Of a DNA stretch of 64,000 bases, positions 43,548 to 61,079 are shown piece after piece. The stretch's first letter is position 1; every line of letters begins with the position of its first letter. The position numbers and the translations under genes are program-made. A model generated the notes under the pieces. It saw only the letters and a program-made list of their open reading frames with translations, ran no database searches and was not told where the DNA came from. The DNA comes from Betaproteobacteria bacterium Ga0077527 (GTDB lineage: Bacteria > Pseudomonadota > Gammaproteobacteria > Burkholderiales > SG8-41), in contig LNDW01000015.1 in the NCBI GenBank assembly GCA_001464815.1, positions 124,001-188,000 of the forward strand. Direction: 5' to 3'.

Positions 43548-43561
43548 TTGACCGCAGTCAA
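43548..43561. promoter_or_regulatory. Crp/Fnr-type operator, frc/regulator divergent promoter
   Basis: Perfect palindrome TTGAC-CGCA-GTCAA between frc (minus) and its regulator gene (plus). The same sequence recurs in the sucC promoter, with close variants at oxc and tctC. It is centred -41.5 from the predicted frc start and could also control the regulator itself. Confidence 0.75.
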
Positions 43562-43641
43562 GATTTGGTTGCAAAAATTCTCCTTGATTTACAATCAGTT
43601 ATAAAATCGTCAGCGCCCTCCACGCATCCACCGCGACAACC

Positions 43642-44250
43642 ATGACCCAGCTCGCGCTCCATCCACAATCCAGAATCATCCGCGTCCAACTGCGGCAGAA
43701 TCTGGTGCTTAAAAACCTGGGTGCCGCGCAGTGGCAGGAATTCGAGCCGCTGCTGGAAATCATCGACTATGCCAAGGGCGAGACGCTGGAACTGCAGGGC
43801 ACGCACTCGATGGAGCAATACTTTGTCATCGACGGCATCCTCAAACGCACGGTATCCAACGCCCAGGGCAAGGAAATGATCCTGCGCTTTGCCGCGGAGA
43901 GCGATATCGACACCAGCTACGCCGCATGGCGCCTGAAAACCCCGATGCCCTATTCGATCCGTGCAGTGACCAAGGTCCGTGCTGCAAAACTGTCGATGCT
44001 GCAGTGGGCGGCTTTTCTTGAGCGCCATCCGAAAATCAAGGGTGAATTCGAACTTGAAGTCATGCGCCTGATGAGCGAGGTGATGGGACATACCATCACC
44101 CTGCATCTGCTCAATGCACCGGGACGTGTGCAGCGCTTCATGCGCAAACACATCAATATCAGCGATCGTCTGCCGAAAAAGGAGCTGGCCTCCTACCTCA
44201 ATCTGTCCCCGGAAACCCTGAGCCGCCTGAAACGGCGCGGCAAGATCTGA
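43642..44250 (+). CDS. Crp/Fnr-family transcriptional regulator of the oxalate island
   Basis: A 202-residue protein with a cNMP-type beta-barrel sensor (about residues 20-110), a dimerisation helix (about 115-150) and a C-terminal winged helix-turn-helix (LPKKELASYLNLSPETLSRLKRRGKI). The recognition helix has the ExxSR residues used by Fnr to read TTGAT-type half-sites, fitting the TTGAC palindromes nearby. There is no cysteine in the protein, so it cannot hold an Fnr iron-sulfur cluster. The cAMP-pocket motif of CRP is not recognisable either. Its ligand is probably a pathway metabolite such as oxalate, oxalyl-CoA or formyl-CoA, but this is inference. Confidence 0.88.
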   Translation: MTQLALHPQSRIIRVQLRQNLVLKNLGAAQWQEFEPLLEIIDYAKGETLELQGTHSMEQYFVIDGILKRTVSNAQGKEMILRFAAESDIDTSYAAWRLKTPMPYSIRAVTKVRAAKLSMLQWAAFLERHPKIKGEFELEVMRLMSEVMGHTITLHLLNAPGRVQRFMRKHINISDRLPKKELASYLNLSPETLSRLKRRGKI

Positions 44251-44327
44251 AGATCGGTGCCGGCGCTGATTGATGCACCGCAATACCGCACTTACAGCGC
44301 GGACCAGCAGCCAGCAGCCCGCTAAAA

Positions 44328-44341
44328 TTGACCGGGGTCAA
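44328..44341. promoter_or_regulatory. Crp/Fnr-type operator of oxc
   Basis: TTGAC-CGGG-GTCAA. With -10 TAAGAT at 44364-44369 and a start near 44376, its centre is at -41.5. An alternative reading is a sigma70 -35 TTGACC paired with TTATAC at 44351-44356, 17 bases apart, in which case the factor would act as a repressor. Confidence 0.7.
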
Positions 44342-44363
44342 GAGCGTTTTTTATACGCTCCCC

Positions 44364-44369
44364 TAAGAT
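44364..44369 (+). promoter_or_regulatory. Predicted -10 of the oxc promoter
   Basis: TAAGAT positioned as expected for class II activation from the operator at 44328-44341. It gives a leader of about 138 bases before the oxc ATG, in which I see no known riboswitch or leader peptide. Confidence 0.5.
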
Positions 44370-44513
44370 GCAATGGATTCCATCAGAGCCGTTACCAAGG
44401 CGGCCTGGCCAAGGGGCATCGGGTGGCTGACGCACAGGCTGCCGGCAATTACCCATCCGTAAACGATTTCCACTGATTCACTGACTCAGAACCGCATCGC
44501 GAAAGCTTCCAAC

Positions 44514-46247
44514 ATGACGACCGACACCCAATCACAGTCACTCAGCGACGGCATTGACATCCTGATCGAGGCCCTCAAGCTCAACGGCATCAGCAACCTC
44601 TATGGCCTGCCCGGTATCCCGATCACCGACCTTACCCGCCGCGCCCAGGCTGCCGGCCTGCGCATGATCTCTTTTCGCCATGAGCAGAACGCAGGCAATG
44701 CCGCGTCGATCGCCGGCTTCCTGACCCGGAAACCGGGCATCTGCCTCACAGTTTCGGCCCCGGGCTTCCTTAATGGCCTTACCGCGCTGACCAACGCAAC
44801 CACCAACTGCTTCCCGATGATCCTGATCAGCGGCTCGAGCGAGCGCGAGATTGTTGATCTGCAGCAAGGTGACTACGAGGAGATGGACCAGCTTGCCATC
44901 GCCAAACCGCTGTGCAAAGCCGCGTTCCGCGTGCTGCACATCGAGGATATCGGCATCGGCATCGCGCGCGCCATCCGCGCCGCGGTATCCGGCCGCCCTG
45001 GTGGCGTGTACCTCGACTTGCCGGCAAAGGTATTCGCGCAGACCATCGATGCAACGGCGGGCAAAGCCTCGCTGATCAAGGTGGTGGATCCCGCGCCGCG
45101 CCAGATTCCGGCGCCGGAAGCAGTACAACGTGCCTTGCGCCTGCTCGCCAGCGCCAAGCGCCCGCTGATCATCCTCGGCAAGGGCGCGGCCTACGCACAG
45201 GCCGACACCGAAGTTCGCGCACTGATCGAAAAAACCAAGATTCCCTACCTGCCGATGTCGATGGCCAAGGGCCTGTTACCCGACACCCATGAGCAATCGG
45301 CGGCCGCGGCACGCTCCTACGTGCTGCCCGAAGCCGATGTGGTGGTGCTGGTCGGCGCGCGCCTGAACTGGCTGCTGTCGCATGGCAAAGGCAAGACCTG
45401 GGGCGGCAAGGATGCCAAGGCCTGGGGCGGCCAGAAATACATCCAGATCGACATCTCGCCGCAGGAAGCTGACAGCAATGTGCCGATCGACGCGCCGCTG
45501 GTCGGCGACGTTGGTTCCTGCGTATCAGCCCTGCTCGACGGCATCAGTGCCGCCGGTGCGGGCTGGCCGCAGCCCTCAGCCGACTGGCTGGGCGCGATCT
45601 CCGAGCGCAAGGGCAAGAACATCGCCAAGATGGCGGAAACGCTGGCCAAGAACCCGAGCCCGATGAACTTCCACAGCGCGCTGAACGTGGTGCGCGACAT
45701 CGTCAAGGCCAACCCGGATGCGATGCTGGTCAACGAAGGCGCCAACGCGCTCGACTTCACGCGCAGCATCGTGGACATGTACAAGCCGCGCAAGCGCATC
45801 GACGTCGGCACCTGGGGCGTAATGGGCATCGGCATGGGCTTCGCCGTCGCCGCCGCCGTGGAAACCAACCTGCCGGTGATTGCGATCGAAGGTGACAGCG
45901 CCTTCGGTTTCTCCGGCATGGAAGTGGAGACCATCTGCCGCTACAAGCTGCCGGTGTGCATTGTCGTGTTCAACAACAACGGCGTCTACAAGGGCACCGA
46001 TGTCAACCCGACCGGCGGCCCTGACGTCGCCCCCACGGTGTTCGTCAAGGGCGCGCGCTACGACATGCTGATGCAGGCCTTTGGCGGTGTCGGCGTCAAT
46101 GCCACGACGCCGGACGAACTGCGCAAGGCGATGGAAGAAGCCGTGCGTTCCGGCAAGCCGACGCTGATCAACGCGGTGATCGACGAAACCGCCGGCACCG
46201 AAAGCGGCCGCATCACCAGCCTCAATCCTAAAAGCGCCAAGAAGTAA
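44514..46247 (+). CDS. oxc: Oxalyl-CoA decarboxylase
   Basis: ThDP enzyme that converts oxalyl-CoA to formyl-CoA and CO2. The 577 residues match Oxc in length. Diagnostic points: [13 protein letters not shown] at the N terminus, ThDP-activating glutamate in [51 protein letters not shown], and the ThDP/Mg motif [14 protein letters not shown]...FNNNGVYKG. It lies downstream of the regulator gene but behind its own operator and promoter, and ends at a strong bidirectional terminator shared with tctA. Confidence 0.95.
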
Positions 46248-46250
46248 CGG

Positions 46251-46304
46251 GCGCGGGCGCAAAAAAAACCGCGGCATTTCTGCCGCGGTTTTTTTGCGCC
46301 CGCG
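46251..46304. terminator. Bidirectional terminator between oxc and tctA
   Basis: A very long near-perfect hairpin: GCGGGCGC, an A-run and CCGCGGCA (to 46276) pair with TGCCGCGG, a T-run and GCGCCCGC, around a four-base loop. The A8/T7 tracts within the stem let it work in both directions for these convergent genes. Confidence 0.9.
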
Positions 46305-46326
46305 TGGTGGCGGGTTGCGGTCAATC

Positions 46327-47823
46327 TCAACCAGCGGCCTTGAGTCGCGCCTTGAGCTTGCCGAACAGCGGCCAGACCAGCAGCAGCAGGCCAAGTCCCA
46401 TGATGCTGCCGACCAGTCCGTTCGAGAAAAACACGCCGAGGCTGCCCTGGGAAATCAGCATCGACTGGCGGAACGCGTCCTCGGCCTGGTCACCCAGCAC
46501 CAGGGCCAGCACCAGCGGCGCCAGCGGGTAGGCCAGCTTCTTGAAGGCATATCCGAGCACGCCGAATATCAGCATCATCCAGATGTCGAGCATGGCATTG
46601 TTGACGGTATAGGCGCCGATCGCGCAGATCACGATGATCACCGGCGCGATGATCGAGAACGGGATGCGCAGGATCGCGGCGAACAGCGGCACGCAGGTGA
46701 GCACGATGATCAGGCCGACGATGTTGCCCAGATACATGCTGGCGATCAGGCCCCAGACGAAATCCTTCTGCTCGACGAACAGCAGCGGCCCCGGCTGCAG
46801 GCCCCAGATCAGCAGGCCGCCGAGCAGCACCGCCGCGGTCGGCGAACCGGGAATGCCCAGCGACAGCATCGGCAGCAGCGCCGCGGTGCCGGCGGCATGG
46901 GCCGCGGTTTCCGGCGCCACCACACCCTCGGCCTGGCCGGTGCCGAACTTGGCGCCGTCGGGTGACATGCGCTTGGCCACGCCATAGGCCATGAACGAGG
47001 CCGGCGTCGCGCCGCCGGGGGTAATGCCCATCCAGCAGCCGATCAGGCAGCTGCGCAGCGAGGTCACCCAGAACCTGGGCAGCTTCTTCCAGGTTTCGAC
47101 GACGATGCGGGTGTTGATCCTGGCGTCGCGGCCGGAGAAGGACAGCCCCTCCTCCATCGACAGCAGGATTTCGCCGATGCCGAACAGCCCGATCACCGCA
47201 ATCAGGAAGTCAAAGCCGCGCATCATCTCGTGCCAGCCGAAAGTCAGCCGCAACTGGCCGGTGACGGTGTCGATGCCGACCGCCGCCAGCGCGAAACCGA
47301 GCATCATCGCGGCGAGGATCTTGAAGGCGGGCTCCTTGCCCATGCCGATAAAACTGCAGAAGGTCAGGAAAAACACCGAGAAAAATTCAGGCGGGCCGAA
47401 CTTCAGCGCGAATTTCGCCACCAGCGGCGCGAGGAAGGTGATCATCACCACCGCGAAAAAGGCGCCGATGAACGACGAGGTGAACGCCGTCGTCAGCGCC
47501 TCACCGGCGCGTCCCTGCTGCGCCATAGGATAACCGTCGAAGGTGGTCGCCACCGACCAAGGTTCGCCCGGAATGTTGAACAGGATGGAGGTCATGGCCC
47601 CGCCGAACAGCGCCCCCCAGTAAATGCAGGAGAGCATGATCACCGCCGAGGTTGGCGGCATGCTGAAGGTGAGCGGCAGCAGGATCGCGATGCCGTTGGC
47701 CCCGCCCAGCCCCGGCAGCACGCCGATGAGCACGCCGAGGACGATGCCGATCACCATCAGCATCAGATTGAACGGGGTCAGCGCAATGGAAAACCCGTGA
47801 AACAGGGCATTGATTTCGTCCAA
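46327..47823 (-). CDS. tctA: Tripartite tricarboxylate transporter, large permease TctA
   Basis: Large membrane subunit of a TTT-family, secondary, binding-protein-dependent transporter. The 498 residues form about 11-12 helices. Family segments: LIGVLPGLGGANGIAILLPLTF, YWGALFGGAMTSILFNIPGEPWSVATTFDGYPMAQQG, and ITPGGATPASFMAYGVAKR. The start is TTG at 47823 behind GGGACGG. Last gene of tctCBA. In this setting oxalate (or another small dicarboxylate) is the likely substrate. Confidence 0.93.
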   Translation of the reverse strand: MDEINALFHGFSIALTPFNLMLMVIGIVLGVLIGVLPGLGGANGIAILLPLTFSMPPTSAVIMLSCIYWGALFGGAMTSILFNIPGEPWSVATTFDGYPMAQQGRAGEALTTAFTSSFIGAFFAVVMITFLAPLVAKFALKFGPPEFFSVFFLTFCSFIGMGKEPAFKILAAMMLGFALAAVGIDTVTGQLRLTFGWHEMMRGFDFLIAVIGLFGIGEILLSMEEGLSFSGRDARINTRIVVETWKKLPRFWVTSLRSCLIGCWMGITPGGATPASFMAYGVAKRMSPDGAKFGTGQAEGVVAPETAAHAAGTAALLPMLSLGIPGSPTAAVLLGGLLIWGLQPGPLLFVEQKDFVWGLIASMYLGNIVGLIIVLTCVPLFAAILRIPFSIIAPVIIVICAIGAYTVNNAMLDIWMMLIFGVLGYAFKKLAYPLAPLVLALVLGDQAEDAFRQSMLISQGSLGVFFSNGLVGSIMGLGLLLLVWPLFGKLKARLKAAG

Positions 47824-47879
47824 GATACCGTCCCTTCAGATCACTTGTCGTTGTGCCTGCGATCCAGCCTGCGCGGCAC

Positions 47880-48395
47880 TCACAGCCCGATCAGGGGCAG
47901 CGGATTGAATTCGCCCTTGAAAAGCGGCACCTTGAACCAGATCTCGAACATCGTGTAAGTCAGCGCGCTGACGGCGCAACCGAGCAGCACGCCCTTGATC
48001 CAGCTGTAATTGCCCATGAACACCATGAACAGGGCGATGTAGGCGGCGGAGGCGGCGTAGATGCCGATCAGCTGGATGCCGAGCACATAAAGCGCCACGG
48101 GTATCAGCACCTGCATGATCTGGCGCAGGGCTCCCCACTCGACAAACAGCTTGTCGTCGCCCTTTTGGCGCAGCACACCGGTCACGGTGACAGCTGCGCC
48201 GATGCAGATCAGCAAGCCGATATAAAACGGGAAATAGCCCGCCTCGGGGCCGTCTGCGCCCCATTTCGCACCCAGCCGCACGCTGTCATAAATGACCATG
48301 CCGCCGATGGTCGCGAGAAAGGCCGCGACCACCAGCTCGGCGCTGCGCATCGAAATGCCGCCGGAGGACCCGCCTGAGATTTTTTCTTCGCTCAT
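47880..48395 (-). CDS. tctB: Tripartite tricarboxylate transporter, small permease TctB
   Basis: A 171-residue membrane protein with four helices and the DUF1468/TctB pattern (AELVVAAFLATIGGMVIYDSVRLG...GPEAGYFPFYIGLLICIGAAV). ATG at 48395 (MSEEKISGG); the frame continuing upstream overlaps tctC and is not coding. It works with TctA as the membrane part of the transporter. It lies 86 bases after tctC and 56 bases before tctA. Confidence 0.92.
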   Translation of the reverse strand: MSEEKISGGSSGGISMRSAELVVAAFLATIGGMVIYDSVRLGAKWGADGPEAGYFPFYIGLLICIGAAVTVTGVLRQKGDDKLFVEWGALRQIMQVLIPVALYVLGIQLIGIYAASAAYIALFMVFMGNYSWIKGVLLGCAVSALTYTMFEIWFKVPLFKGEFNPLPLIGL

Positions 48396-48481
48396 GATTC
48401 CAGTCTCGGATTGCAATGACGGCCAGCGCCGTCCTGCCGGCTCCGGCACCCCCCTGACGGAAATGCCGGAGTGGCCGGGGA

Positions 48482-49483
48482 TCAGGGCTTGGCGAGGAAG
48501 CCCGCTTCCTTCATCAGGTCGCGATGCAGCACTTCCGCCTTGCTGACCCAGTCGGCATAGGCCTTGCCGGTGAGGAAAGTCTGGTTGAACGCGCCGTCTT
48601 CCATGAATTTCTTCCACTCGGGCGTGGCGCGCACCTTGTTGAAGAGGTCGACATAGAAGTTGACGGCCTCCGGCGGCACGCCGGCGGGCATGAAGATGCC
48701 GCGCAGCATCACGTACTCGGTGGACACGCCGGCCTCCCTGCAGGTCGGGATGTCGAACCACGACTGGGTATCGGTGACCCGCGTCTTGTACGGCATCCGC
48801 TCGTCGTCAAACACACACAGCGCGCGCAGCTTGCCCGCGCGCCAGTTGGCGACCGCCTCAATCGGATTGTTGACGGTGGCGTTGACATGCTTGCCCACCA
48901 GCTGGGTGGCCACCGCGCCGCCGCCCTTGAACGGGATGTAGGTGAACTTGACGCCGGCGGCCTTTTCGATCGCCACTGTCAGTATCTGGTCTTCCTGCTT
49001 GGCGCCGGTGCCGCCCATCTTGAAGGTGTTGGGCGGCGCTTTTTTCACCGCGTCGAGGAATTCTTTCGCGGTCTTGTAGGGATCTTCGGCGTTGACCCAG
49101 AGCACGAAATTGTCGAGGGCCAGCATCGACACCGGAGTCATGTCCTTCCAGTTGAAGGGCACGCCGGTCGCCATCGGGGTGGTGAACAGGTTGGACAAGG
49201 TGATGATGATCTTGTGCGGATCACCCTTGGCGGCCTTGACCTCGAGGAAACCCTCGGCGCCGGCGCCACCGGACTTGTTGACCGGAATCAGCGGCTGCTT
49301 CATCAGGTTGTGCTTGGCAACGATGCCCTGGATCAGGCGCGCCATCTGGTCCGCACCACCGCCGGTGCCGGCCGGGATGATGAATTCCACGGGCTTGCTG
49401 GGCTCCCAGGCGGCAACCGGCGCAGCCATGATGGCCGCGAACAGTGCAACCACTGCACCCGAAAACAATCGCTGAATCTTCAT
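48482..49483 (-). CDS. tctC: Tripartite tricarboxylate transporter, periplasmic binding protein TctC (Bug family)
   Basis: A 333-residue exported solute receptor. The signal peptide runs from MKIQRLFSGAVVALFAAIMA to AWEPSKPVEF. Bug-family features: VEFIIPAGTGGGADQMARLIQ, a first-lobe ligand loop, and FKMGGTGAKQEDQILTVAIEKAAGVKFTYIPFKGGGAVATQLVGKHVNATVNNPIEAVANW. ATG 49483 is preceded by a very strong GGAGGAG. It is the first gene of tctCBA and the island operator lies 119 bases upstream. Oxalate as ligand is inferred from context. Confidence 0.92.
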   Translation of the reverse strand: MKIQRLFSGAVVALFAAIMAAPVAAWEPSKPVEFIIPAGTGGGADQMARLIQGIVAKHNLMKQPLIPVNKSGGAGAEGFLEVKAAKGDPHKIIITLSNLFTTPMATGVPFNWKDMTPVSMLALDNFVLWVNAEDPYKTAKEFLDAVKKAPPNTFKMGGTGAKQEDQILTVAIEKAAGVKFTYIPFKGGGAVATQLVGKHVNATVNNPIEAVANWRAGKLRALCVFDDERMPYKTRVTDTQSWFDIPTCREAGVSTEYVMLRGIFMPAGVPPEAVNFYVDLFNKVRATPEWKKFMEDGAFNQTFLTGKAYADWVSKAEVLHRDLMKEAGFLAKP

Positions 49484-49572
49484 GACACTCCTCCTATCGA
49501 TGGGTGACGACGGTGCCGGGAAGTTCTCCGGCGAATTGCCGGGCCCGGCTTTTGTAATTGATCTTTGATGCC

Positions 49573-49578
49573 ATTCTT
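49573..49578 (-). promoter_or_regulatory. Predicted -10 of the tctCBA promoter
   Basis: Minus-strand AAGAAT, placing the start near 49566. The operator at 49602-49615 would then be centred at about -42.5. Confidence 0.4.
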
Positions 49579-49601
49579 GAGCAATTGCGGTGCTGGAACA
49601 A

Positions 49602-49615
49602 TTGACCGCAATCAA
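49602..49615. promoter_or_regulatory. Crp/Fnr-type operator of tctCBA
   Basis: TTGAC-CGCA-ATCAA, differing from the frc and sucC operators at one base in the right half (an Fnr-like ATCAA). Located 119 bases upstream of the tctC ATG. The rest of this 318-base gap (to 49801) is AT-rich DNA and the terminator of the universal stress protein gene. Confidence 0.65.
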
Positions 49616-49763
49616 GAATCGAGTATATCCCTCGCGCGCATTGCGGGCTGCGATTGTGGCTCAAGAGCAAGAAGCCGCAGATCGCAACCCGCCGCAATCA
49701 ACAGTCCGACGCGAATCAGGCCTGGCGCAGAAAAAATATCAATTAAATCAATAACTTGATAAA

Positions 49764-49796: not shown

Positions 49797-49801
49797 CCTG
49801 A

Positions 49802-50230
49802 TCAGCGGATCAAGGTGATCGGAACCTGCGTCAGATGCAGGACCTTGGTCGCCACCGAGCCCAGCACCAGGCCTGACACTGCGCCAAGACCGCGGCAGCC
49901 CATCACGATACGGTCGCAGCCCTGCGATTTGACGTAGGCCGCGATCACATCGGCGGGTTCGCCGACACTGATATGCGGGGTGTACGGGATTTTCGCCGCA
50001 TCCAGTTTCGCCCGCGCCGGAGCCAGCGCCTTCTCACCCTCTTCCTTGTAGTACTGATTCAGCGAATCCGCGCTGATGAACATTTTCACGTTCACACCGC
50101 CGAGCGTCATCTGCGCGTTGAGCAGATGCAGCTCCATCGGCACCTTGTGCAGCGCACTCTCCTTGACCAGGAAATCGATCACACGCGCCGAGTTTTCCGA
50201 ACCATCCACCGCCACCAGCAACTTTGCCAT
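49802..50230 (-). CDS. Universal stress protein, UspA family
   Basis: A 142-residue cytosolic protein with the Usp fold: KLLVAVDGSENSARVIDFLV at the N terminus, VKSQGCDRIVMGCRGLGAVSGLVLGSVATKVLHLTQVPITLI at the C terminus. The ATP-binding pattern G-x2-G-x(9)-G-S is present (GCRGLGAVSGLVLGSVATK). It follows terC by 13 bases, so the two are probably co-transcribed. No island operator lies before terC-usp. Confidence 0.92.
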   Translation of the reverse strand: MAKLLVAVDGSENSARVIDFLVKESALHKVPMELHLLNAQMTLGGVNVKMFISADSLNQYYKEEGEKALAPARAKLDAAKIPYTPHISVGEPADVIAAYVKSQGCDRIVMGCRGLGAVSGLVLGSVATKVLHLTQVPITLIR

Positions 50231-50243
50231 TTTGTATGCTCCT

Positions 50244-50987
50244 TCAGTCTTTTTTGGCTTCCTGGCCAGCGGCCAGGTCAACCGGTGCCGCTTCTTCCGC
50301 CTTGTTTCCGCCAGCTGCTTTTTTTCGGGCGGTCATGACCTTGCCGACGATCACCACCAGCGCGGCGCCCGCCACCGGCGCAACATATTTGAGCCACGGG
50401 GCATTGGCCAGCATCCAGTCCTTGACCACGACGTCATGCACGAACATGTCACCCGCGATCCAGCCAAGCAGCGCGGCACCACCGACGATCACTATCGGGT
50501 AGCGATCCATCAGCATCAGCACCAGCTTGCTGCCGTAGACGATGATCGGAACACTGACCAGCAGGCCGAACACCACCAGGCCGATGCTGTCCTTGGCCGC
50601 GCCGGCAATCGCGATCACGTTGTCGAGGCTCATCACCGCGTCGGCGACGATGATGGTCTTTACCGCGCCGAAGAGGTTGCTGCTGGCATCAATTTCATGT
50701 CCGCCTTCATCCTGGGGCGCCATCAGTTTGAGACCGATCCACAGCAGCAGTATCGCGCCGACTATCTTCAGGTAGGCGATCTGCAGCAACTGCAGCGCGA
50801 AGAAGATCAGCACCACGCGCAGCGCGATCGCGCCGAACACACCCCAGAAAATGGCCAGCTTGCGCTGCGCCTCCGGCAGCCGCCGTGATGCCAGCGCGAT
50901 CACCACGGCGTTGTCGCCGCCGAGCACGATGTCGATGGCGATGATCTGTACTACGGCGACCCAGAATGCAGGAGAGGAAATGTCCAT
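50244..50987 (-). CDS. TerC-family membrane protein
   Basis: A 247-residue protein with seven helices. TerC motifs: QIIAIDIVLGGDNAVVIALA (acidic GGDN) near the N terminus and VADAVMSLDNVIAIAGAA in the middle, followed by VFGLLVSVPIIVYGSKLVLMLMDRYP. Relatives export manganese or confer tellurite resistance; some aid metalation of exported proteins. No manganese (yybP-ykoY) riboswitch is visible in its leader. C-terminal tail is Lys/Glu-rich. Confidence 0.88.
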   Translation of the reverse strand: MDISSPAFWVAVVQIIAIDIVLGGDNAVVIALASRRLPEAQRKLAIFWGVFGAIALRVVLIFFALQLLQIAYLKIVGAILLLWIGLKLMAPQDEGGHEIDASSNLFGAVKTIIVADAVMSLDNVIAIAGAAKDSIGLVVFGLLVSVPIIVYGSKLVLMLMDRYPIVIVGGAALLGWIAGDMFVHDVVVKDWMLANAPWLKYVAPVAGAALVVIVGKVMTARKKAAGGNKAEEAAPVDLAAGQEAKKD

Positions 50988-51025
50988 GATTGACTTCCGT
51001 GAAATTAAATTCTTTTTTAGTTCGG

Positions 51026-51132: not shown

Positions 51133-52503
51133 TCAGCGTGCCGCGGCCGGTGCGGTCACCGGGGCCGGGTTGGCGGGCAAAATCCTGCTTTTCTCATGCG
51201 GCTCCCAGCCGAGCAGGGCAAGCATCACAAAAAAACCGATCACGTATGCAACGGGCACATGCCAGCCGTAGCGCAGCCACAACCCGACCGAGCGCGCCTC
51301 CGGATACATGTTGGACAGCGCCACTCCGGCGCTGGAACCAAACCAGATCATCGAGCCGCCGAAACCGACGGCAAAGGCCAGCACGCCCCAATCGTAACCA
51401 CCCTGCTTCAATGCCAGAGCGGTCAGCGGAATGTTGTCGAACACCGACGAGATGAAGCCCAGGCCAAACGCCGACCCCCAGGAAGCCGGTGGCAGTTTTT
51501 CCACCGGCATCATCGAGGCGCAAAGAACCAGCGAGAGCAGGAACACGCTGCCCTTGGCGGCCTCGGGCACCAGCTCCCACTGCGGCTTGCGCCAGGGCAC
51601 ACAGGCAAGGATCACCACCCATACCGCGACGCCGATGAAGGGAAAGGCATGTGAAAGATGGCTGAACCTGAGGTTGATGGTGACATTGGTGATGATCGCC
51701 GCCGCGAGGATCAGCACGACAATCAACACCCGCGACCAGTCCACCGGCGCGTGCCCGCCGCTGTCGCGGCAGATCGGCGCGTAACGGTGCTGCTGCAGCG
51801 CGGCCGGAATACCGCAGATGACCAGGGCCACAGCCGCAGCGACATAGGCATGCAGCACATCAAGCGGGCTGACGCCGTCGAGCCACATCATTGTCGTCGT
51901 GGTGTCTCCGACCACGCTGCCGGCGCCGCCGGCATTTGAAGCCGCGACAATCCCTGCGAGATAGCCGATGTGCACCTTGCGCCTGAACAGTGTCGCCGCC
52001 AGCGTACCGCCGATCAGCGCCGCGGCGATGTTGTCGAGAAAACCCGACATCACCCACACCATCACCAGCAGCGCGAAAGCCCCCTTCCAGCCTTCGGGCA
52101 GGAACTTCGGCAGAACCAGCGGCAGATGGCTGCGCTCGAAATGGTTCGACAGGATCGCAAAGCCGACCAGCAGGCATAGCAGGTTGGTGATGATCACCCA
52201 CTCATGGGCGAGGTGGGCGAGCAGTCCGCCGATGCCGTCGCCGGTCTTGAATCCGGTGAACCCCGTCTTGTAGAGCGCGATGACCGCCAGCCCGGTCAAG
52301 GCCACGCGCAGAGTGTGTTTGTGGAACAGGGCGACACCCAGCAGTGTCAGCGCGAACAGGATGAAATCGACAGGGATGCCGAACACCGCCGGTGCCTGTG
52401 ACGCAGCCGCGGCGTGACCTGCTCGACAGGCCATCAGCAGGCCGGTGGCAGCCGCAAGCGTGTTGATACCGCGCGCGGGACGGCTCACAGGGTGAACGGG
52501 CAT
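51133..52503 (-). CDS. NhaD/ArsB-superfamily ion transporter
   Basis: A 456-residue membrane protein from ATG 52503 with about 12 helices. Typical ion-transporter-superfamily motifs: MSGFLDNIAAALIGGTLAATLF, AASNAGGAGSVVGDTTTTMMWLDGVSPL, and the repeat-2 counterpart SSVFDNIPLTALALKQGG, with GFGGSMIWFGSSAGVALSNMYPEA. These resemble NhaD Na+/H+ antiporters and citrate-type carriers. It is the last gene of the operon, 55 bases after fhs. In this setting it might export Na+ or move an organic anion such as formate; not decidable by sequence. Confidence 0.82.
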   Translation of the reverse strand: MPVHPVSRPARGINTLAAATGLLMACRAGHAAAASQAPAVFGIPVDFILFALTLLGVALFHKHTLRVALTGLAVIALYKTGFTGFKTGDGIGGLLAHLAHEWVIITNLLCLLVGFAILSNHFERSHLPLVLPKFLPEGWKGAFALLVMVWVMSGFLDNIAAALIGGTLAATLFRRKVHIGYLAGIVAASNAGGAGSVVGDTTTTMMWLDGVSPLDVLHAYVAAAVALVICGIPAALQQHRYAPICRDSGGHAPVDWSRVLIVVLILAAAIITNVTINLRFSHLSHAFPFIGVAVWVVILACVPWRKPQWELVPEAAKGSVFLLSLVLCASMMPVEKLPPASWGSAFGLGFISSVFDNIPLTALALKQGGYDWGVLAFAVGFGGSMIWFGSSAGVALSNMYPEARSVGLWLRYGWHVPVAYVIGFFVMLALLGWEPHEKSRILPANPAPVTAPAAAR

Positions 52504-52558: not shown

Positions 52559-54232
52559 TCAGAACAGCCCGACCACCTTGCCATCGTCGGTGAGGTCGAT
52601 TTTCTCCGAGGACGGCACTTTCGGCAGCCCCGGCATGGTCATGATGTCACCGCAGATCATCACGATGAATTCCGCGCCGGCAGCCAGCCGCACTTCGCGG
52701 ACATTCACCATGTGCCCGCTCGGCGCGCCGCGCACGCTGGCATCGGTCGAGAACGAGGACTGGGTCTTCGCCACGCATACCGGGTAGTGGCCGTAGCCGC
52801 CCTCCTGCAGCTCCTTGATGCGGTTGCGCACCTTGGAATCCGCGGAAATATCCGCCGCACCATAAACCTTGGTCGCGATCTTTTTCATCTTGTCCCACAA
52901 CGGATCGCTGTCTTCGTAGACGAAGGTCGGGTTCGACTTCTGCTCGCACATGTCGACGACGATCTTCGCCAGCTCGGCAGCACCCTTGCCGCCTTCACCC
53001 CAGTGGTTGGCGACCACGACCCTGGCGCCGAGCTTGGTGATGCGATCGGTGAGCAGATCCATTTCCGCCTTGGTGTCGGCGGTGAAGCGGTTGACCGAGA
53101 CCACGCAGGGAATGTTGTAGACGTTTTTGACGTTGTGCACATGGCGCTCAAGGTTGACCAGGCCTTTTTCCAGCGCCCCCAGGTTTTCCTTGTTGAGGTC
53201 CTCCTTGCCGACGCCGCCGTGGTGTTTCAGCGCACGCACGGTGGCAACAATCACCGCGGCGGCAGGTTTCAGGCCGGCCTTGCGGCACTTGATGTCGAGG
53301 AACTTCTCGGCACCGAGATCGGCGCCGAAACCGGCTTCAGTCACCACGTAATCCACCAGTTTCAGCGCAGTCTTGGTGGCGATCACCGAGTTGCAGCCGT
53401 GGGCGATGTTGGCAAACGGACCACCATGGATGAACGCGGCATTGTTTTCCAGCGTCTGCACCAGGTTCGGCGCCAACTGGTCCTTCAGCAACACGGTCAT
53501 CGCGCCATGCGCTTTCAGGTCGCGCGCGCGCAGCGGCTTGTTGTCTCGGGTGTAGCCGAAAACGATGTTGCCGAGGCGTTCCTTCAGGTCCTTCAGCGAA
53601 GTCGCAAGGCAGAAAATCGCCATCACTTCCGAGGCGACTACGATATCGAAGCCGTCCTCACGCGGGTAGCCGTTGGCGGTGCCGCCGAGGGACACCACGA
53701 TGTCGCGCAGTGCGCGGTCGTTCATGTCCATCACCCGCTTCCAGGTGATGCGGCGCGGGTCGATGCCGAGTTCATTGCCGTGCGAAATGTGGTTGTCGAT
53801 CATCGCGGCAAGCAGGTTGTTCGCCAGCGCGATCGCGCCGAAGTCGCCGGTGAAGTGCAGGTTGATGTCTTCCATCGGCACCACCTGGGCGTAACCGCCG
53901 CCGGCAGCACCACCCTTGACGCCGAACACCGGACCCAGCGAGGGCTCGCGCAGGCAGATCATCGCCTTCTTGCCGATGTGGTTCAGCGCGTCGCCAAGGC
54001 CGACCGTGGTCGTGGTCTTGCCTTCGCCCGCGGGCGTCGGGTTGATCGCGGTGACGAGGATCAGCTTGCCGTCTTTTTTGTCCTTCAGACTGTCGACGTA
54101 TTCGAGAGAGACCTTGGCCTTGTAGTGGCCGTAGGGCACGAGGTGCGCTTCCGGGATGCCCAGCTTCTGCGCGATCTTGTTGACGCGCTCCATTTTTGCC
54201 GCCTGGGCAATTTCGATGTCCGACAGTGCCAT
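52559..54232 (-). CDS. fhs: Formate--tetrahydrofolate ligase
   Basis: ATP-dependent formation of 10-formyl-THF from formate and THF. From ATG 54232 ([22 protein letters not shown]) it has 557 residues, the family length. The P-loop is [18 protein letters not shown]; other segments are [36 protein letters not shown] (family signature) and [14 protein letters not shown]-type [15 protein letters not shown]. It lies between the formate dehydrogenase and the NhaD-like gene, so formate can be either oxidised or assimilated. Confidence 0.96.
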
Positions 54233-54309: not shown

Positions 54310-57120
54310 TCAAACCGCGGAAAGTTTCGCCAGCACCTGCCCGCCGCCGTAACTCGAGCGCGGCGTCAGCTCCCCGCCTTTCATCACCTTGACCGCGCAA
54401 TACTTGAATTCCGGAATCTTGCCGTAGGGATCCAGCGCGGCGTTGGTCAGCAGGTTGGCCGCGGCTTCGTAATAGCAGAACGGGATGAACACCGAGCCGC
54501 GCGGCGTGCCGTCGTCGGCGCGCGCATGCAGCGAAATGATGCCGCGGCGCGAGGCGACGGTGACCACATCACCACCGCGGGCACCTATGGCGTCGAGGTC
54601 GAGCGGATGCATCGACACCGTCGGCTCGGGCTCGATGGCGTCAAGTACGCCGGCACGGCGCGTCATCGCGCCAGTGTGCCAGTGCTCGAGCTGGCGGCCG
54701 GTGATCAGTACGAAGGCATATTCGTGGTCGGGACGCTCGTTGGCGGGAATGACGTCGGCCGGCACAAATTTCGCCCGACCGGTAGGCGTAGGAAATTTAT
54801 CAATAAAAACAATGGGTTGACCAGGATCACCCTCTTCCAAGCAGGGGTAGGTGACGCTGCTCTCCGCCTCCAGCCGCTCCCAGGTGATGCCGGCAATCGA
54901 GTTCATCGCCAGGCGCATCTCGTTGAACACATCCTTCGGTCCGGCGTAGTTCCAGTCAAGACCGAGGCGGCGCGCCAGCTCCTGGATGATCCACAGGTCA
55001 GGCTTCGCCTCCCCCGGCGCATCCACCGCCTTGCGGCCGAGCTGCACCATGCGGTCGGTGTTGGTGACGGTGCCATCCTTTTCCGGCCACACCGTGGCGG
55101 GCAGGATCACATCGGCGTGGTAACAGGTTTCGGTCAGGAAAATTTCCTGAACCACCAGCCAGTCGAGCTTGGCCAGCGCCTCGCGCGCGTGGTTGGCATC
55201 CGGGTCCGACATCGCCGGGTTTTCACCCATCACATACATGCCGCGGATGTCGCCATCGAGAATCGCATGCACGATCTCGACCACGGTCAGGCCGGGTTTC
55301 GGATCCAGCTTGGTGTTCCACAGTTTTTCAAACCGCGCCAGCGCCTCGGGATTGTCGACGCGCTGATAGTCCGGGAACACCATCGGGATCAGCCCCGAGT
55401 CGGAAGCCCCCTGCACATTGTTCTGGCCGCGCAGCGGATGCAGCCCCGAACCCGGCTTGCCGATCTGGCCGGTCATCAGGCACAGCGCGATCAGGCAGCG
55501 CGCATTGTCGGTGCCGTGGATATGCTGGGAGATACCCATGCCCCACAGAATCATCGAGGCTTTCGAGGTCGCGTAAAGCCGCGCCACAGCCTTGATGGTG
55601 TCGGCGGGAATGCCGCAAACCGGCGCCATCACTTCGGGGCTGTAGCCTTCGACGTTCTTTTTCAAGTCTTCGTAACCGATGGTGCGTGACTTGATGAAGT
55701 CTTCGTCGACCAGCCCTTCGTGGACGATGACATGCATCATTGCGTTGAGCAGCGCAACGTCGGTGTCGGGTTTGAACTGCAGCGAATACTCGGCGTGGCG
55801 CGACAGTTCGTTGAGTCGCGGGTCGGCATAGATCAGCTTGGCGCCGTTTTTCACCGCATTCTTGATCCACGTCGCCGCAACCGGATGGTTGGACAGCGGG
55901 TTGGCACCGATCAGGAAAATCACTTCGGCGCGCGCCACGTCATTCACCTGGTTCGACACCGCACCGGAACTCACCGCCTCCATCAGCGCGGCGACACTCG
56001 ATGCATGGCACAGCCGCGTGCAATGATCGACGTTGTTGGAGCCGAAACCGGTGCGCACCAGTTTCTGGAACAGATAGGCCTCTTCGTTGCTGCCCTTGGC
56101 CGAGCCAAAACCGGCGAGCGACTTGTTGCCATGCCGGTCACGGATTTCCTTGAGCTTGCCCGCGGCGAGGTCCAGCGCCTCTTCCCAGCTTGCTTCACGG
56201 AAGTGCTCCAGCGGATTCGCCGGGTCCATCGTGAAATCGGCATGCTTTGGAACCCCGGGCTTGCGGATCAGCGGCTTGGTCAGGCGCTGCGGATGGTGGG
56301 CGTAATCAAAGCCGTAGCGGCCCTTCACGCACAGCCGGCCGTGATTGGACGGACCGTCGCGGCCATCGACCGAGACGATTTTATTGTCCTTGACGTTGTA
56401 GGTGAGCTGGCAGCCGACGCCGCAGTACGGGCACACCGAGTGCACCTGCCTGTCCGGCTTGACCAGGCCGGCCTCGCGCGCCGGCATCAGCGCGCCGGTC
56501 GGACAGGCCTGCACACACTCGCCGCAGGCGACACAGGTCGATTCACCCATCGGGTCGCCAAGATCAAACACGATGGCCGAATGCTCTCCCCGGAAAGCAT
56601 AACCGATGACGTCATTGACCTGCTCTTCGCGGCAGGCACGCACGCAGCGTGTGCACTGGATACAGGAATCAAGATTGACCGCGATGCCGTGGTGCGACAG
56701 ATCGGCCGCCGGCTGGTGGCGCCGCGCGAACCGCGGCTTGCCGACCTGCAGCCTGCCCGCCCAGTGATCGAGTTCGGAATTGTTGGTGTGACGGTGCTCC
56801 GGCATATCCGACAACAGCAGCTCCATCACCATTTTCTGCGATGCCACCGCCCGCGCACTGTCGGTGGTGACTTCCATGCCCGGCGACGGATTGCGGCAGC
56901 ACGATGCCGCAAGCACACGTTCGCCCTTGACCTCGACCACACAGGCGCGGCAGTTGCCGTCGGGGCGCATTCCTTCCTTGTAGCAAAGGTGGGGGATCTC
57001 GACGCCGTGGCGCTTCGCGGCCTGGATGATGGTTTCGCCGGCCTCGGCAACGACGCTGCTGCCGTTCAGCTTGAACTCGACAGGCATCGCCGACAGTTCG
57101 TCCTTGCTCATTGCGGTCAT
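54310..57120 (-). CDS. fdhA: NAD-dependent formate dehydrogenase, molybdenum catalytic subunit
   Basis: Oxidises formate to CO2, cytosolic. About 936 residues. Domains in order: N-terminal [2Fe-2S] ferredoxin (C...CRACVVEV, residues ~10-90), a His-Cys [4Fe-4S] region, two [4Fe-4S] clusters ([23 protein letters not shown]), then a further [4Fe-4S] (CPYCGVGC) opening the bis-MGD domain. The active-site Mo ligand is cysteine in [11 protein letters not shown], followed by His; no selenocysteine. ATG 57120 is chosen; ATG 57111 is possible. It lies 34 bases after the fused diaphorase gene. An AT-rich patch with atypical codons lies at 54797-54820. Confidence 0.94.
54802..54813 (-). repeat. AT-rich dispersed repeat, copy 4 (inside fdhA)
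   Basis: Minus-strand ATTGTTTTTATT within fdhA, coding IVFI with codons ATT GTT TTT ATT. It is identical over 12 bases to copy 1 (21051-21062). Confidence 0.35.
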
Positions 57121-57154
57121 GGCTGTGACTCCGAAGCTGTGCGGCAAGCCCGCA

Positions 57155-58852
57155 CTACCCGACTTCCTTGGGAAAATACTTCATTACCGTGCGGATCGGG
57201 TTCGGCGCCGCCTGACCCAGTCCGCAGATCGAGGCGTCGGCCATCGCACCCGACAGTTCCTCGAGCAGGCCTCGATCCCACTGTTTTGCATCCATCAACT
57301 GCCGCGCCTTCGCCGTACCGACGCGGCAGGGCGTGCACTGGCCGCAGGATTCCTCGGCGAAAAACTTCATCACGTTGCTCGCTGCACCACGCGCGCTGTC
57401 ACGATCCGAAAAAATGATCACCGCCGCCGAGCCGATGAAACAGCCGTACGGATTCAGTGTGTCGAAATCGAGTGGAATGTCGCCCATCGCCGCCGGCAGG
57501 ATGCCGCCCGAGGCCCCACCCGGCAGATAGCCGTAGAACTGGTGACCGGGCAGCATGCCGCCGCAATACTCCTCGATCAGTTCCTTCACCGTGATGCCGG
57601 CCGGTGCGAGGTGTACGCCGGGTTTCTTCACGCGGCCCGACACCGAAAACGAACGCAGGCCCTTGCGGCCGTTGCGGCCGTGGCCGGCAAACCACCCGGC
57701 GCCCTTCTGCACGATGTCGCGCACCCAGTACAGGGTTTCCATGTTGTGCTCGAGTGTCGGATGACCGAAGAGCCCGACCTGCGCCACATACGGCGGGCGT
57801 AGCCGCGGCATCCCGCGCTTGCCTTCGATCGATTCGATCATCGCGGATTCTTCGCCGCAAATGTAGGCACCGGCGCCGCGGCGCAGGAACATCGGCGGCA
57901 AGGGGCAGGGTGGATCGGCCTGCAGCGCCTTGATCTCTTTTTCAAGTATCGCGCGGATTCCGGCGTACTCGTCGCGCAGATAGATGTAAACCTCGGAAAT
58001 CTGAGCCGCCCAGGCCGCGACCACCACGCCTTCAAGAAAACGGTGCGGATCACGTTCGAGGTAATGACGGTCCTTGAAGGTGCCGGGTTCGCCCTCATCG
58101 ATGTTCACCGCCATCAGTCGCGGGCCTTTTTCGCCGCGCACGATCCGCCACTTTCGACCGGTAGGAAAACCCGCGCCGCCGAGCCCGCGCAGGCCGGAAT
58201 TTTCCATGGTCTTGATCAGCGACTCGGCATCGCGCGTGCCATTAAAGCATTCGATCGCGAGGTCGTAGCCGCCGGTTCTGCGGTATTCGCTGTAGTTCAC
58301 ATACTTGCCGGTCGCACACTGCGTTTTTTTCGCAGCGACCAGCGGCTTGACCTTGTCGATGCTGGCCTGCGCCACAGGATTCTGCCCGACCACGGCCACC
58401 GGAGCCTGATCACAACGACCGACGCAAGGCGCCGGGATCACCCGCACGCCATTACCCAGCACCTTCTTCAGATCCTGGATCAGCGCATTCGCGCCGGACA
58501 GTTCGCAGGACAGGGAATCACAGACCCGCACGGTCAGCGCCGGCGGCGGGGTCTGCCCCTCCTTCACCACGTCGAAGTGGTGGTAGAAAGTTGCGACCTC
58601 ATAAACTTCGGTCATCGCCAGCTTCATTTCACGCGCCAGCGCGACGATGTGCGCAGCCGGAATGTGGCCGTAACGGTCCTGGATCAGATGCAGATTCTCG
58701 ATCAGCAGGTCGCGGCGGCGGGGATCAATGCCGGTTTTGCGCTGCGCAGCCGCAAGCAGAGCCTGGACTTCACCCAGCGCTCCGGACTCGACACTGCGGC
58801 CTTTCATGGCGCCGCGCGCGCGCTTGCCGCGTTTAACGATGCCGCCTTCCAA
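57155..58852 (-). CDS. Formate dehydrogenase diaphorase subunit, NuoE-NuoF (FdsG-FdsB) fusion
   Basis: Passes electrons from the catalytic subunit to NAD. Residues about 20-165 are NuoE/FdsG-like, with the [2Fe-2S] cysteines in VRVCDSLSCELSG and PAPCVGRCDQAP. Residues about 200-565 are NuoF/FdsB-like: SGLRGLGGAGFPTGRKW (NADH site), GAGAYICGEESAMIESIEG (FMN site) and ESCGQCTPCRVGT ([4Fe-4S]). In soluble formate dehydrogenases these are usually separate genes. I place the start at TTG 58852, seven bases after a strong GGAGG; ATG 58807 and GTG 58876 are alternatives. Confidence 0.92.
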   Translation of the reverse strand: MEGGIVKRGKRARGAMKGRSVESGALGEVQALLAAAQRKTGIDPRRRDLLIENLHLIQDRYGHIPAAHIVALAREMKLAMTEVYEVATFYHHFDVVKEGQTPPPALTVRVCDSLSCELSGANALIQDLKKVLGNGVRVIPAPCVGRCDQAPVAVVGQNPVAQASIDKVKPLVAAKKTQCATGKYVNYSEYRRTGGYDLAIECFNGTRDAESLIKTMENSGLRGLGGAGFPTGRKWRIVRGEKGPRLMAVNIDEGEPGTFKDRHYLERDPHRFLEGVVVAAWAAQISEVYIYLRDEYAGIRAILEKEIKALQADPPCPLPPMFLRRGAGAYICGEESAMIESIEGKRGMPRLRPPYVAQVGLFGHPTLEHNMETLYWVRDIVQKGAGWFAGHGRNGRKGLRSFSVSGRVKKPGVHLAPAGITVKELIEEYCGGMLPGHQFYGYLPGGASGGILPAAMGDIPLDFDTLNPYGCFIGSAAVIIFSDRDSARGAASNVMKFFAEESCGQCTPCRVGTAKARQLMDAKQWDRGLLEELSGAMADASICGLGQAAPNPIRTVMKYFPKEVG

Positions 58853-58918
58853 AATGACTCCTCCCGGGGCAGTCACGGCCGGACCCTTCAGGGCCCGGCC
58901 GCGTTGTGTACAGCGGTT

Positions 58919-59803
58919 TTACTTCAGCACCGACTTGAGCAGCTTGCCCATCTCCGCCGGATTTTTCGTGGTACGGATGCCGCACTCTTCCATCACCGAC
59001 AGCTTTTCATCGGCCGTGCCCTTGCCGCCGGAAATGATCGCGCCGGCGTGGCCCATGCGTTTGCCCGGAGGCGCGGTGACGCCGGCGATGAAGCCGACCA
59101 CCGGTTTTTTCATGTTGGCCTTGATCCAGCGCGCACATTCTTCCTCGTTCGAGCCGCCGATCTCCCCGACCATGATCACCGCCTCCGTCTGCGGGTCGTC
59201 GTTGAACATCTTCATCACGTCAATGTGCTTCAGGCCGTTCACCGGGTCGCCGCCGATGCCGACACAGGATGACTGGCCCAGGCCCAGCTCCATCAGCTGG
59301 CCGACCGCTTCATAGGTCAGCGTGCCGGAACGTGACACCACGCCGATCGGTCCCTTTTTATGGATGTGGCCTGGCATGATGCCGATCTTGATCTCGTCGG
59401 GCGTGATCACGCCGGGGCAGTTCGGCCCGATCAGGATGGTCTTGCTCCTGTTCTGCTCCATCTTGTATTTCAGGCGCACCATGTCACGCACCGGAATGCC
59501 TTCGGTGATGCAGATCACCAGCTCCAGTTGCGCGTCCACCGCCTCCTCGATCGCCGCGGCGGCAAAGGGCGGCGGCACGTAGATCACCGACACGTTGGCG
59601 CCGGTGGCATCCTTCGCTTCGCGCACCGTGTTGAAGATCGGGATGCCTTCGTAGCTCTGGCCGCCTTTTTTCGGGGTGACGCCGGCAACATAGCAATTCT
59701 GGCCGTTGGCGTATTCCTTGCCGGTCTTGGTGTGGAACATGCCGGTCTTGCCGGTGATGCCCTGGGTCATCACCCGCGAGTTTTTATCGATCAGGATGGA
59801 CAT
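58919..59803 (-). CDS. sucD: Succinyl-CoA synthetase alpha subunit
   Basis: ATP/GTP-linked interconversion of succinate and succinyl-CoA. The 294 residues from ATG 59803 match Suc[63 protein letters not shown], and the phosphohistidine site [14 protein letters not shown]. The start is one base after the sucC stop. In an oxalate regulon it would supply succinyl-CoA as CoA donor for oxalate activation and recycle succinate. Confidence 0.96.
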
Positions 59804-59804
59804 A

Positions 59805-60974
59805 TCAGTTCTTTCCCTTCGCAGCCGCAACGACCTTTTGCGCGGCGTCTGCCATGTTGTTGCCGGAAATGATCGGCAGTCCCGACTCCGCGAGGATCTT
59901 CTTGCCGAGTTCGACGTTGGTGCCTTCGAGGCGCACCACCAGCGGTACACTGAGGCTGACCTGGCGCGCAGCTGCAACCACGCCCTGCGCGATCACGTCG
60001 CATTTCATGATGCCGCCGAAGATGTTGACCAGGATCGCCTTCAGCTGCGGGTTGCGCAGCATGATCTTGAACGCTTCGGTGACCTTTTCCGCGGTGGCGC
60101 TGCCGCCGACGTCGAGGAAGTTGGCGGGGGCGCCGCCATAGAGCTTGATGATGTCCATCGACGCCATCGCAAGACCGGCACCGTTGACCAGGCAGCCGAT
60201 GTTGCCATCAAGCTGGATGTAATTGAGGTCGTGCTTCGAGGCCTCGACCTCTGCCGGATCCTCTTCATCGAGGTCGCGCAGCGCAACGATGTCGGGATGA
60301 CGGAACAGCGCATTGTTGTCGAAATCGATCTTGGCATCCAGCGCGATCACCTTGCCGTCGCCGGTCAGAATCATCGGGTTGATTTCGGCCAGCGACGCGT
60401 CGGTGTCGTCAAATGCCTTGTACAACGCCTGCAGGATCGTCCGCGCCTGGGGCACTGAAGCATCGGGCACACCGATCTTGCGCGCGACATCGTCGGCATC
60501 GGCATCAGCGAGGCCCTTGACCGGGTCGATCACCACCTTGTGGATTTTCTCGGGGGTGTGCTCGGCGACTTCCTCGATGTCCATGCCGCCTTCGCTCGAC
60601 GCCATCAGCACCGCGCGCTGGGTGCCGCGGTCGATCACCAGGCCGACATAGAGTTCTTTCTTGATGTCCGCGCCTTCTTCAACCAGCAGGCGCCGCACCT
60701 TCTGTCCTTCTGGCCCGGTCTGGTGGGTCTTAAGCTGCATGCCGAGGATTGCCGAAGCATGGTTTTTAACTTCGGCCGCGGATTTCGCGACCTTGACGCC
60801 GCCACCCTTGCCGCGACCACCGGCATGGATCTGCGCCTTGACGACCCAGACCTTGCCGCCGAGTTTTTCGGCCGCCGCGACAGCTTCGTCAACAGTGAAA
60901 CAGGGTATGCCCCGTGGCGTGGTGACGCCGTATTTGCGCAGCAGCTCTTTCGCCTGATATTCGTGGATTTTCAT
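59805..60974 (-). CDS. sucC: Succinyl-CoA synthetase beta subunit
   Basis: Beta subunit with an ATP-grasp domain (about residues 1-235) and a CoA-ligase domain. The 389 residues match Suc[101 protein letters not shown]. First gene of a six-gene operon reaching to 51133. The island operator lies 92 bases upstream of its ATG, so this copy is probably tied to oxalate metabolism. A second, TCA-cycle sucCD may exist elsewhere, but that cannot be seen here. Confidence 0.96.
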
Positions 60975-61036
60975 GTTCCGTTCCGCGTGGTTAGCGCAAT
61001 TGGATGGGTGGCGTCACCGGCCCCCGCAGGGACGCC

Positions 61037-61042
61037 AATCTA
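61037..61042 (-). promoter_or_regulatory. Predicted -10 of the sucC operon
   Basis: Minus-strand TAGATT. The start near 61030 would place the operator at 61066-61079 at about -42.5 and give a 55-base leader. Confidence 0.45.
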
Positions 61043-61065
61043 TTACAGCGAACTGCGCAGCGGCC

Positions 61066-61079
61066 TTGACCGCAGTCAA
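61066..61079. promoter_or_regulatory. Crp/Fnr-type operator of the sucC operon
   Basis: Perfect TTGAC-CGCA-GTCAA, identical over 14 bases to the operator at frc (43548-43561), about 17.5 kb away. Upstream of the six-gene operon sucC-sucD-fdsGB-fdhA-fhs-NhaD. Confidence 0.75.

Follow-up and report, generated by a model that had tools for sequence, protein, structure and literature searches.

The Crp/Fnr family of transcription factors includes several well described activators. FNR, Anr and DNR contact a TTGA-N6-TCAA core with a helix of the E-T-x-S-R type and typically act from the class II position, whereas in CRP, with its TGTGA operator, the pair Arg82-Ser83 binds the phosphate of cyclic AMP (cAMP). 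A further member, HcpR1, is treated by Rodionov et al. (2005, PMC1274295), who predict the operator wyTTGACnnnnGTCAArw for deltaproteobacteria and two cyanobacteria, with hcp and frdX genes as the predicted targets; the same paper ties Ser or Pro at CRP position 180 to TTGACnnnnGTCAA and gives TTGATnnnnATCAA as the motif of DNR. Here we deal with an oxalate island in a stretch of 64,000 nucleotides (the window) of Betaproteobacteria bacterium Ga0077527 (contig LNDW01000015.1). Its genes frc and oxc code for the same enzymes as the known oxalate genes (TIGR03253 and TIGR03254), and between them lies the gene for a Crp/Fnr-type regulator of 202 amino acids, P0001 (43642..44250, + strand; domain and alignment searches).

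A palindrome, TTGAC-N4-GTCAA, is shared by promoters of the island and, together with its class II position and the adjoining regulator gene, it very probably makes up the system by which this bacterial group controls the degradation of oxalate. The explanation that we hold with high confidence is that P0001 is a class II Crp/Fnr-type activator of an oxalate/formate regulon. Dedicated to the catabolism of oxalate and formate, P0001 would bind the palindrome as a dimer, centred at -41.5 or -42.5, and would recruit RNA polymerase (class II activation) at promoters that have a -10 hexamer and no evident -35. Its targets would be frc and the Fmt-like gene beside it, oxc, tctCBA and sucCD-fdhBA-fhs, so that the uptake of oxalate, its activation with CoA, its decarboxylation and the oxidation or assimilation of formate would be induced together. 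The regulon is new; the mechanism of class II activation is of a known kind.

P0001 shares with HcpR1 the operator TTGACnnnnGTCAA, the Crp/Fnr family, a Ser or Pro where CRP has R180 and the lack of an FNR-type cysteine motif, a likeness of motif and residues. The difference lies in the targets, which are predicted to be hcp and frdX for HcpR1 and would be oxalate and formate genes for P0001: the genes at the island promoters are neither hcp nor frdX, and the strict motif was found only at the island, in a genome that was not searched for hcp itself. In the literature searched, with subscription journals largely outside it, we were not able to find a dedicated Crp/Fnr-type regulator of frc/oxc, and the exact motif string came up in one paper, as the HcpR motif (PMC1274295).

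Operators and -10 hexamers of the island promoters

The original prediction had placed the palindrome at frc, oxc and sucC and a relaxed form of it at tctC, and a motif scan finds all four predicted operators there. The oxc copy is TTGACCGGGGTCAA, at 44328-44341 on the + strand. The frc and sucC copies, at 43548-43561 and 61066-61079 of the - strand, are identical over 14 bases, as had been claimed (both are TTGACCGCAGTCAA and read TTGACTGCGGTCAA towards frc and towards sucC). The tctC copy, TTGACCGCAATCAA at 49602-49615 of the - strand, reads TTGATTGCGGTCAA towards its gene and is relaxed in form, but real. Site and start codon are 167 (frc), 172 (oxc), 118 (tctC) and 91 bp (sucC) apart, and the frc site sits in the divergent gap between frc and the regulator gene. 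Beyond the 14 common bases, nine of the ten bases that follow the frc and sucC operators towards the gene agree as well (GGCYGCTGCG).

It had also been claimed that a -10 hexamer is spaced so as to centre the palindrome at -41.5 to -42.5. If offsets are counted from the base at which the site starts, a hexamer TAnnnT at offset 37 or 38 puts the centre at -41.5 or -42.5, respectively. Such hexamers are present at frc (TATAGT, 43520..43525, - strand, offset 37, centre -41.5), oxc (TAAGAT, 44364..44369, + strand, offset 37, centre -41.5) and sucC (TAGATT, 61037..61042, - strand, offset 38, centre -42.5), and the claim is right for these three; tctC has only a poor hexamer (AAGAAT, offset 38) at the corresponding position. 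By gene order we predict four transcription units, namely frc with the Fmt-like gene, oxc, tctCBA and sucCD-fdhBA-fhs. They hold 11 genes and not the 12 counted originally, a number that is reached only with the antiporter-like gene after fhs (51133-52503).

The same distances were determined in relatives. The position sets exclude any context truncated at the end of a locus and keep a single copy of identical ones; thinning of the promoters was the one correction for relatedness made in any count. Before thinning, TAnnnT stands at 37/38 in 93 of 105 oxc promoters, 33/33 frc, 6/6 sucC, 12/15 fhs and 0/52 tctC promoters, and after thinning in 48/54 (oxc), 12/12 (frc), 4/4 (sucC) and 10/13 (fhs). 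In the unthinned, half-site and shuffle sets the oxc class includes low-identity oxc-like enzymes, and rows with TTGATN4ATCAA (7/246) are kept; the low-identity genes by themselves have the hexamer in 6/7 thinned promoters. When nearly identical sets were shuffled 500 times, the largest counts were 7/61 for oxc, 3/12 for frc, 2/4 for sucC and 2/14 for fhs, with means of 1.6, 0.2, 0.05 and 0.2, respectively, and of 0.8 (of 33) for tctC. The class II geometry is clear for the promoters of oxc, frc, sucC and fhs, and weak for those of tctC. Even in the latter, offsets 37 and 38 give the highest mean match to TATAAT (2.4 and 2.2 of 6 bases, as compared with 0.85-1.73 at the other offsets from 30 to 47), and the promoter has a weak -10 at best.

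These distances also bear on the question whether the first half of the palindrome is the -35 element of a sigma-70 promoter, or the whole palindrome the operator of a repressor. TTGACC does resemble the -35 consensus, and at oxc, where the original prediction had allowed for an overlapping sigma-70 -35, TATACG follows with an 18-base spacing. However, at the spacing of a -35 (offsets 22-25) TAnnnT is found, after thinning, in 1/54 oxc, 0/12 frc, 0/4 sucC and 0/13 fhs promoters, as opposed to the 48, 12, 4 and 10 at 37/38, and the consensus of the stretch between site and -10 has no evident -35. The overlap at oxc thus fails, and repression is judged less likely from the position at -41.5; taken together, we regard this pair of alternatives to activation by P0001 as very improbable. 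Towards the regulator gene, the gap that it shares with frc has TAnnnT at 37/38 in 4/98 cases with no peak, as compared with 33/33 towards frc, and autoregulation through this gap is not supported.

In the window, TTGACN4RTCAA has seven strand-matches, as compared with a mean of 0.21 (maximum 2) in 100 dinucleotide shuffles. In the whole genome (3,418,246 bases), the strict form TTGACN4GTCAA has three copies, all of them within the island, so the genome is not rich in the motif, a point on which the original prediction had asked for a scan; the reversed control pattern has two copies in the same genome. The relaxed form TTGAYN4RTCAA is found 22 times, four times in the island. Eleven of the 18 relaxed sites off the island were checked both ways, and TAnnnT stood at the class II offset in 1/22 directions, at a site (L004) inside an open frame. 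From the off-island sites examined, no additional target is proposed in this genome. At L013 (TTGACCGAGATCAA), the downstream frame runs past the locus end and overlaps minus-strand frames.

Several of the relaxed matches off the island are of the type TTGAT-N4-ATCAA that is expected of Fnr. Potentially, the island sites could be ordinary FNR boxes too, served by an oxygen-sensing Fnr, with the island under oxygen control and the neighbouring regulator gene incidental. The genome does have a cysteine-bearing Fnr with an E-T-x-S-R helix (L113) in addition to the 22 relaxed matches, FNR, too, typically has class II spacing, and the first half-site at tctC is often TTGAT (21/52). On the other hand, the inner half-site bases are mostly C and G, unlike those of FNR (94 and 83 of 105 at oxc, 31 and 32 of 33 at frc), this genome has no strict motif outside the island, and no site precedes oxc in five genomes that have oxc and lack the regulator (see below). 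Mainly on these three points we set the FNR box aside as unlikely and prefer P0001 as the protein that would bind the island sites. The Fnr gene (G000:C21, about 249100-249590) has a TTGATCTGGGTCAA box close by. This Fnr is the probable owner of the genome's other TTGAT-type boxes.

Conservation of the sites and their link with the regulator gene

For the upstream counts, we used 109 distinct loci with a P0001 homologue, counting loci of identical regulator DNA once, and a site was defined as the relaxed motif within 300 bp upstream of a gene; genes with less than 300 bases upstream, or with a hit starting after residue 40, were left out, and a gene was called operon-internal if another island gene of the same direction has its end no more than 200 bp upstream of it. 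Conservation in orthologous islands, which had been proposed as a test, is borne out. The site is present at oxc in 89/92 loci (77/79 leading and 12/13 operon-internal genes), at leading frc genes in 32/39 and at tctC in 51/73 (44/61 leading and 7/12 operon-internal). In the two leading oxc genes scored without a site (L130 and L132), it lies further upstream, at 367 and 351 bp. As to fhs, the site is found in 11/22 cases (3/3 leading and 8/19 operon-internal), and this gene is a further target in several lineages. The operon-internal controls have no site in tctA (0/76), tctB (0/75), frc (0/34) and the Fmt-like gene (0/65).

At sucC, the strict site is present in 4/4 of the genus mates that were fetched, and two genomes from other families have it too. 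Of the 22 strict sites in the five genomes of the genus, frc, oxc and sucC account for 15, and seven are elsewhere; five of these seven off-island sites, which belong to four genus mates, are inside open frames of at least 150 amino acids, to which we attach little weight since such frames overlap the sucC sites of these genomes too. The likeness, in this genome, of the frc and sucC sites and the bases after them can be cited for an origin of the sites by chance, or by the functionless descent of one duplicated promoter piece. However, the sites are kept between genera, their distance to the -10 is fixed after thinning and the operon-internal controls lack them, and we consider such an origin next to negligible as an alternative to operators of P0001.

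Next, we compared the distribution of the regulator gene with that of oxc. Among 300 genomes of the order, a regulator homologue is found in 54 and oxc in 51 (E 1e-120): 46 genomes have both, eight the regulator only, five oxc only and 241 neither (Fisher P ~5e-40, with kinship ignored). Homologues are also present in 63 loci of the genome collection, a set that overlaps with the former. In a class-wide sample of 369 genomes (E 1e-30), the single regulator match is the window's own genome. Outside the order one record matched, titled Lysobacter (L098), which may be mis-binned. Regulators 90-92% identical to P0001 occur in metagenome bins titled Bordetella parapertussis (L047, L050, L053, L055, L057, L059, L061 and L067), a title that looks like a naming error.

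Five genomes carry oxc and the regulator on different contigs, and in three of them (G002, G008 and G057) the exact site is found upstream of the unlinked oxc. The oxc gene of G144 is split over two contigs, with its start by the regulator and provided with the site (L038), and L236 was therefore not counted as unlinked. In the oxc-positive genomes where no regulator was found (G293, G119, G158, G255 and G247), none has a site within 400 bp, and the best sequences have 3-4 mismatches. One of them, G293, is of the same family as the source genome and keeps frc, oxc and fhs, while its tctA and tctC matches look like fragments. In summary, the site at oxc follows the presence of the regulator gene. 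The dedicated oxalate regulon of the original prediction is supported by this tracking together with the strict motif that is confined to the island, the conserved sites and the class II distance at oxc, frc, sucC and fhs.

Several observations weigh against P0001 as the activator of all these promoters. Among the tctC genes, 22/73 have no site, and 0/33 of the thinned tctC promoters have TAnnnT at the class II offset; a site is missing in 7/39 leading frc genes as well. Conversely, genes that we do not count as targets do have a site when leading (5/13 for the Fmt-like gene, 3/18 for terC and 1/1 for uspA). In seven more distant loci, the site is found within 300 bp of sucC in 0/7, and the sucC branch is therefore not universal. 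In G052 and G180, the best site before the unlinked oxc has two mismatches. The bare motif occurs at least once in 272/300 genomes of the order, and genomes without the regulator reach 16 copies; since bare counts do not tell which genomes have the regulator, across the order only the position of the motif, and not its number, carries the argument. Finally, the C-terminal helix-turn-helix of P0001 matches PF13545 (HTH_Crp_2) with 19.6 bits, below the cut-off of 27, and the protein lacks the wing that normally follows the recognition helix.

The regulator P0001 and its signal

P0001 has an N-terminal cyclic-nucleotide-binding-like domain and, in a middling predicted model, helices at 179-185 and 190-198; the mean confidence score (pLDDT) of this model is 75.6, with low values at 78-88 and 149-157, which is too weak for ligand modelling. 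The recognition helix reads PETLSR, with P190-E191...R195 spaced as positions 180/181/185 of CRP, and the protein ends soon after it. The homologue C-termini that were examined, where long enough, read (P/A)ET(L/M)SR. A regular-expression scan of the 13 places of the genome with a cyclic-nucleotide-binding domain gives an E-T-x-S-R-type helix in two, P0001 and the cysteine-bearing Fnr; the ESASR near the start of the L116 frame was rejected, as it is not at the helix-turn-helix position.

With FNR, Anr and DNR, P0001 has in common the type of helix, the core of the operator and the class II position. It differs from them in that the island sites mostly have C/G and not T/A at the inner half-site base, that it has neither cysteine nor wing and that there is a separate Fnr in the genome. 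There is no cysteine in the sequence of P0001 and no invariant one in 40 aligned sequences, as opposed to the [4Fe-4S] cluster of FNR. As regards cAMP-CRP, the island operator is TTGAC and not TGTGA, and Met102-Pro103 of P0001 stands in the place of Arg82-Ser83 in an ungapped phmmer alignment. On the best reading of these residues, P0001 is neither an Fe-S FNR nor a cAMP-CRP. Since the sensor has neither the cysteines of FNR nor the Arg-Ser pair of cAMP-CRP, its signal is probably a metabolite of the pathway, that is, oxalate, oxalyl-CoA, formyl-CoA or formate.

Genomes that have the regulator but no oxc (eight at E 1e-120) are informative in this respect. In seven of the eight (G007, G036, G048, G081, G092, G132 and G280), a thiamine-diphosphate enzyme that shares 23-28% identity with Oxc adjoins the regulator, together with frc or a frc-like gene. 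Genes of this enzyme (L144:8194-9810, L145:4884-6500, L146:7545-9188, L078:8182-9789 and L081:1621-3237, and also in L133, L134, L147 and L148) lie beside the regulator, usually with the same kind of operator, and no oxc was found in the seven genomes of L133, L134 and L144-L148. The L144 enzyme, the only one compared with solved structures (PDB), has a 2-hydroxyacyl-CoA lyase as its nearest structure. For three such enzymes scanned with NCBIfam, the top model carries the label acetolactate synthase (about 470-500 bits, cut-off 587), followed by 2-hydroxyacyl-CoA lyase (347-361 bits, cut-off 600), in all cases below the cut-off. The enzyme is a candidate for a new producer of formyl-CoA or a new decarboxylase of oxalyl-CoA. 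Should it be a lyase of the 2-hydroxyacyl-CoA kind, the product in common with Oxc would be formyl-CoA.

Because genomes without oxc carry a possible formyl-CoA-producing enzyme under the same kind of site, formyl-CoA or formate has to be considered seriously as the signal in place of oxalate. A version of our explanation that is compatible with P0001 as the activator would have formyl-CoA, formate or one-carbon overflow as the inducer, and the oxalate genes as targets because they make formyl-CoA. In its favour, besides the position of the enzyme by the regulator, low-identity oxc-like genes have a site within 300 bp in 9/10, with the -10 at 37/38 in the thinned promoters noted above, and half of the fhs genes have a site as well. 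On the other hand, the enzyme matches no NCBIfam model above cut-off and could itself decarboxylate oxalyl-CoA or act otherwise, and in 3/7 genomes (G048, G092 and G132) it still has tctA-like transporter genes as neighbours. We therefore think this version possible, but lean against it. A more tentative idea still is that a factor of the Crp/Fnr fold detects either formate or an acyl-CoA thioester (formyl-CoA or oxalyl-CoA), and may switch on whichever formyl-CoA-producing enzyme the lineage has, Oxc or the 2-hydroxyacyl-CoA-lyase-like one, together with formate-consuming genes. The scope given originally is supported as to the oxalate genes; "oxalate" may be too narrow a name in view of these seven genomes.

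Genes of the island and meaning of the regulon

An Fmt-family formyltransferase gene (41161..42093, - strand) lies 3' of frc (formyl-CoA transferase, 42112..43380, - strand; TIGR03253 above cut-off), an arrangement that is seen in many relatives' islands too. The Fmt-family protein is under the cut-off of the methionyl-tRNA formyltransferase model (Fmt) and far under that of PurU, and it might transfer the formyl group of formyl-CoA or of formyl-tetrahydrofolate. Beyond the regulator gene lies oxc (oxalyl-CoA decarboxylase, 44514..46247, + strand; TIGR03254 above cut-off), and the tct genes and those of the last unit are on the - strand. The tripartite transporter consists of the large membrane subunit tctA (46327..47823; PF01970), the small membrane subunit tctB (47880..48395; PF07331) and the periplasmic binding protein tctC (48482..49483; PF03401).

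The last unit includes fhs (formate-tetrahydrofolate ligase, 52559..54232; NF010030), fdhA (formate dehydrogenase alpha subunit, 54310..57120; TIGR01591), sucD (succinyl-CoA ligase alpha, 58919..59803; NF004230) and sucC (succinyl-CoA ligase beta, 59805..60974; NF001913), all above cut-off. Its remaining gene, fdhB (57155..58855), codes for a NuoE/NuoF-like subunit that is below the cut-offs of the NuoF and NuoE models and is taken as the formate dehydrogenase partner by position. Genes for a UspA-like protein and a TerC/YjbE-type membrane protein (49802-50987) recur after tctC in many islands; in relatives, their operon-internal copies have the site in 0/42 and their leading copies in 4/19. 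A riboswitch before terC was looked for, and there was no Rfam match at gathering score within 38000-64000.

Bacterial oxalate breakdown matters for soil carbon, for plant-microbe relations and for the biology of kidney stones. For this pathway, the regulator, its operator, the promoter architecture and a list of targets are here predicted jointly. The regulon would also point to the partner genes of oxalate degradation, namely the transporter, the Fmt-like formyltransferase, fhs, formate dehydrogenase and sucCD. Finally, a different enzyme that replaces oxc under a like operator may offer a natural route to asking what the sensor responds to.

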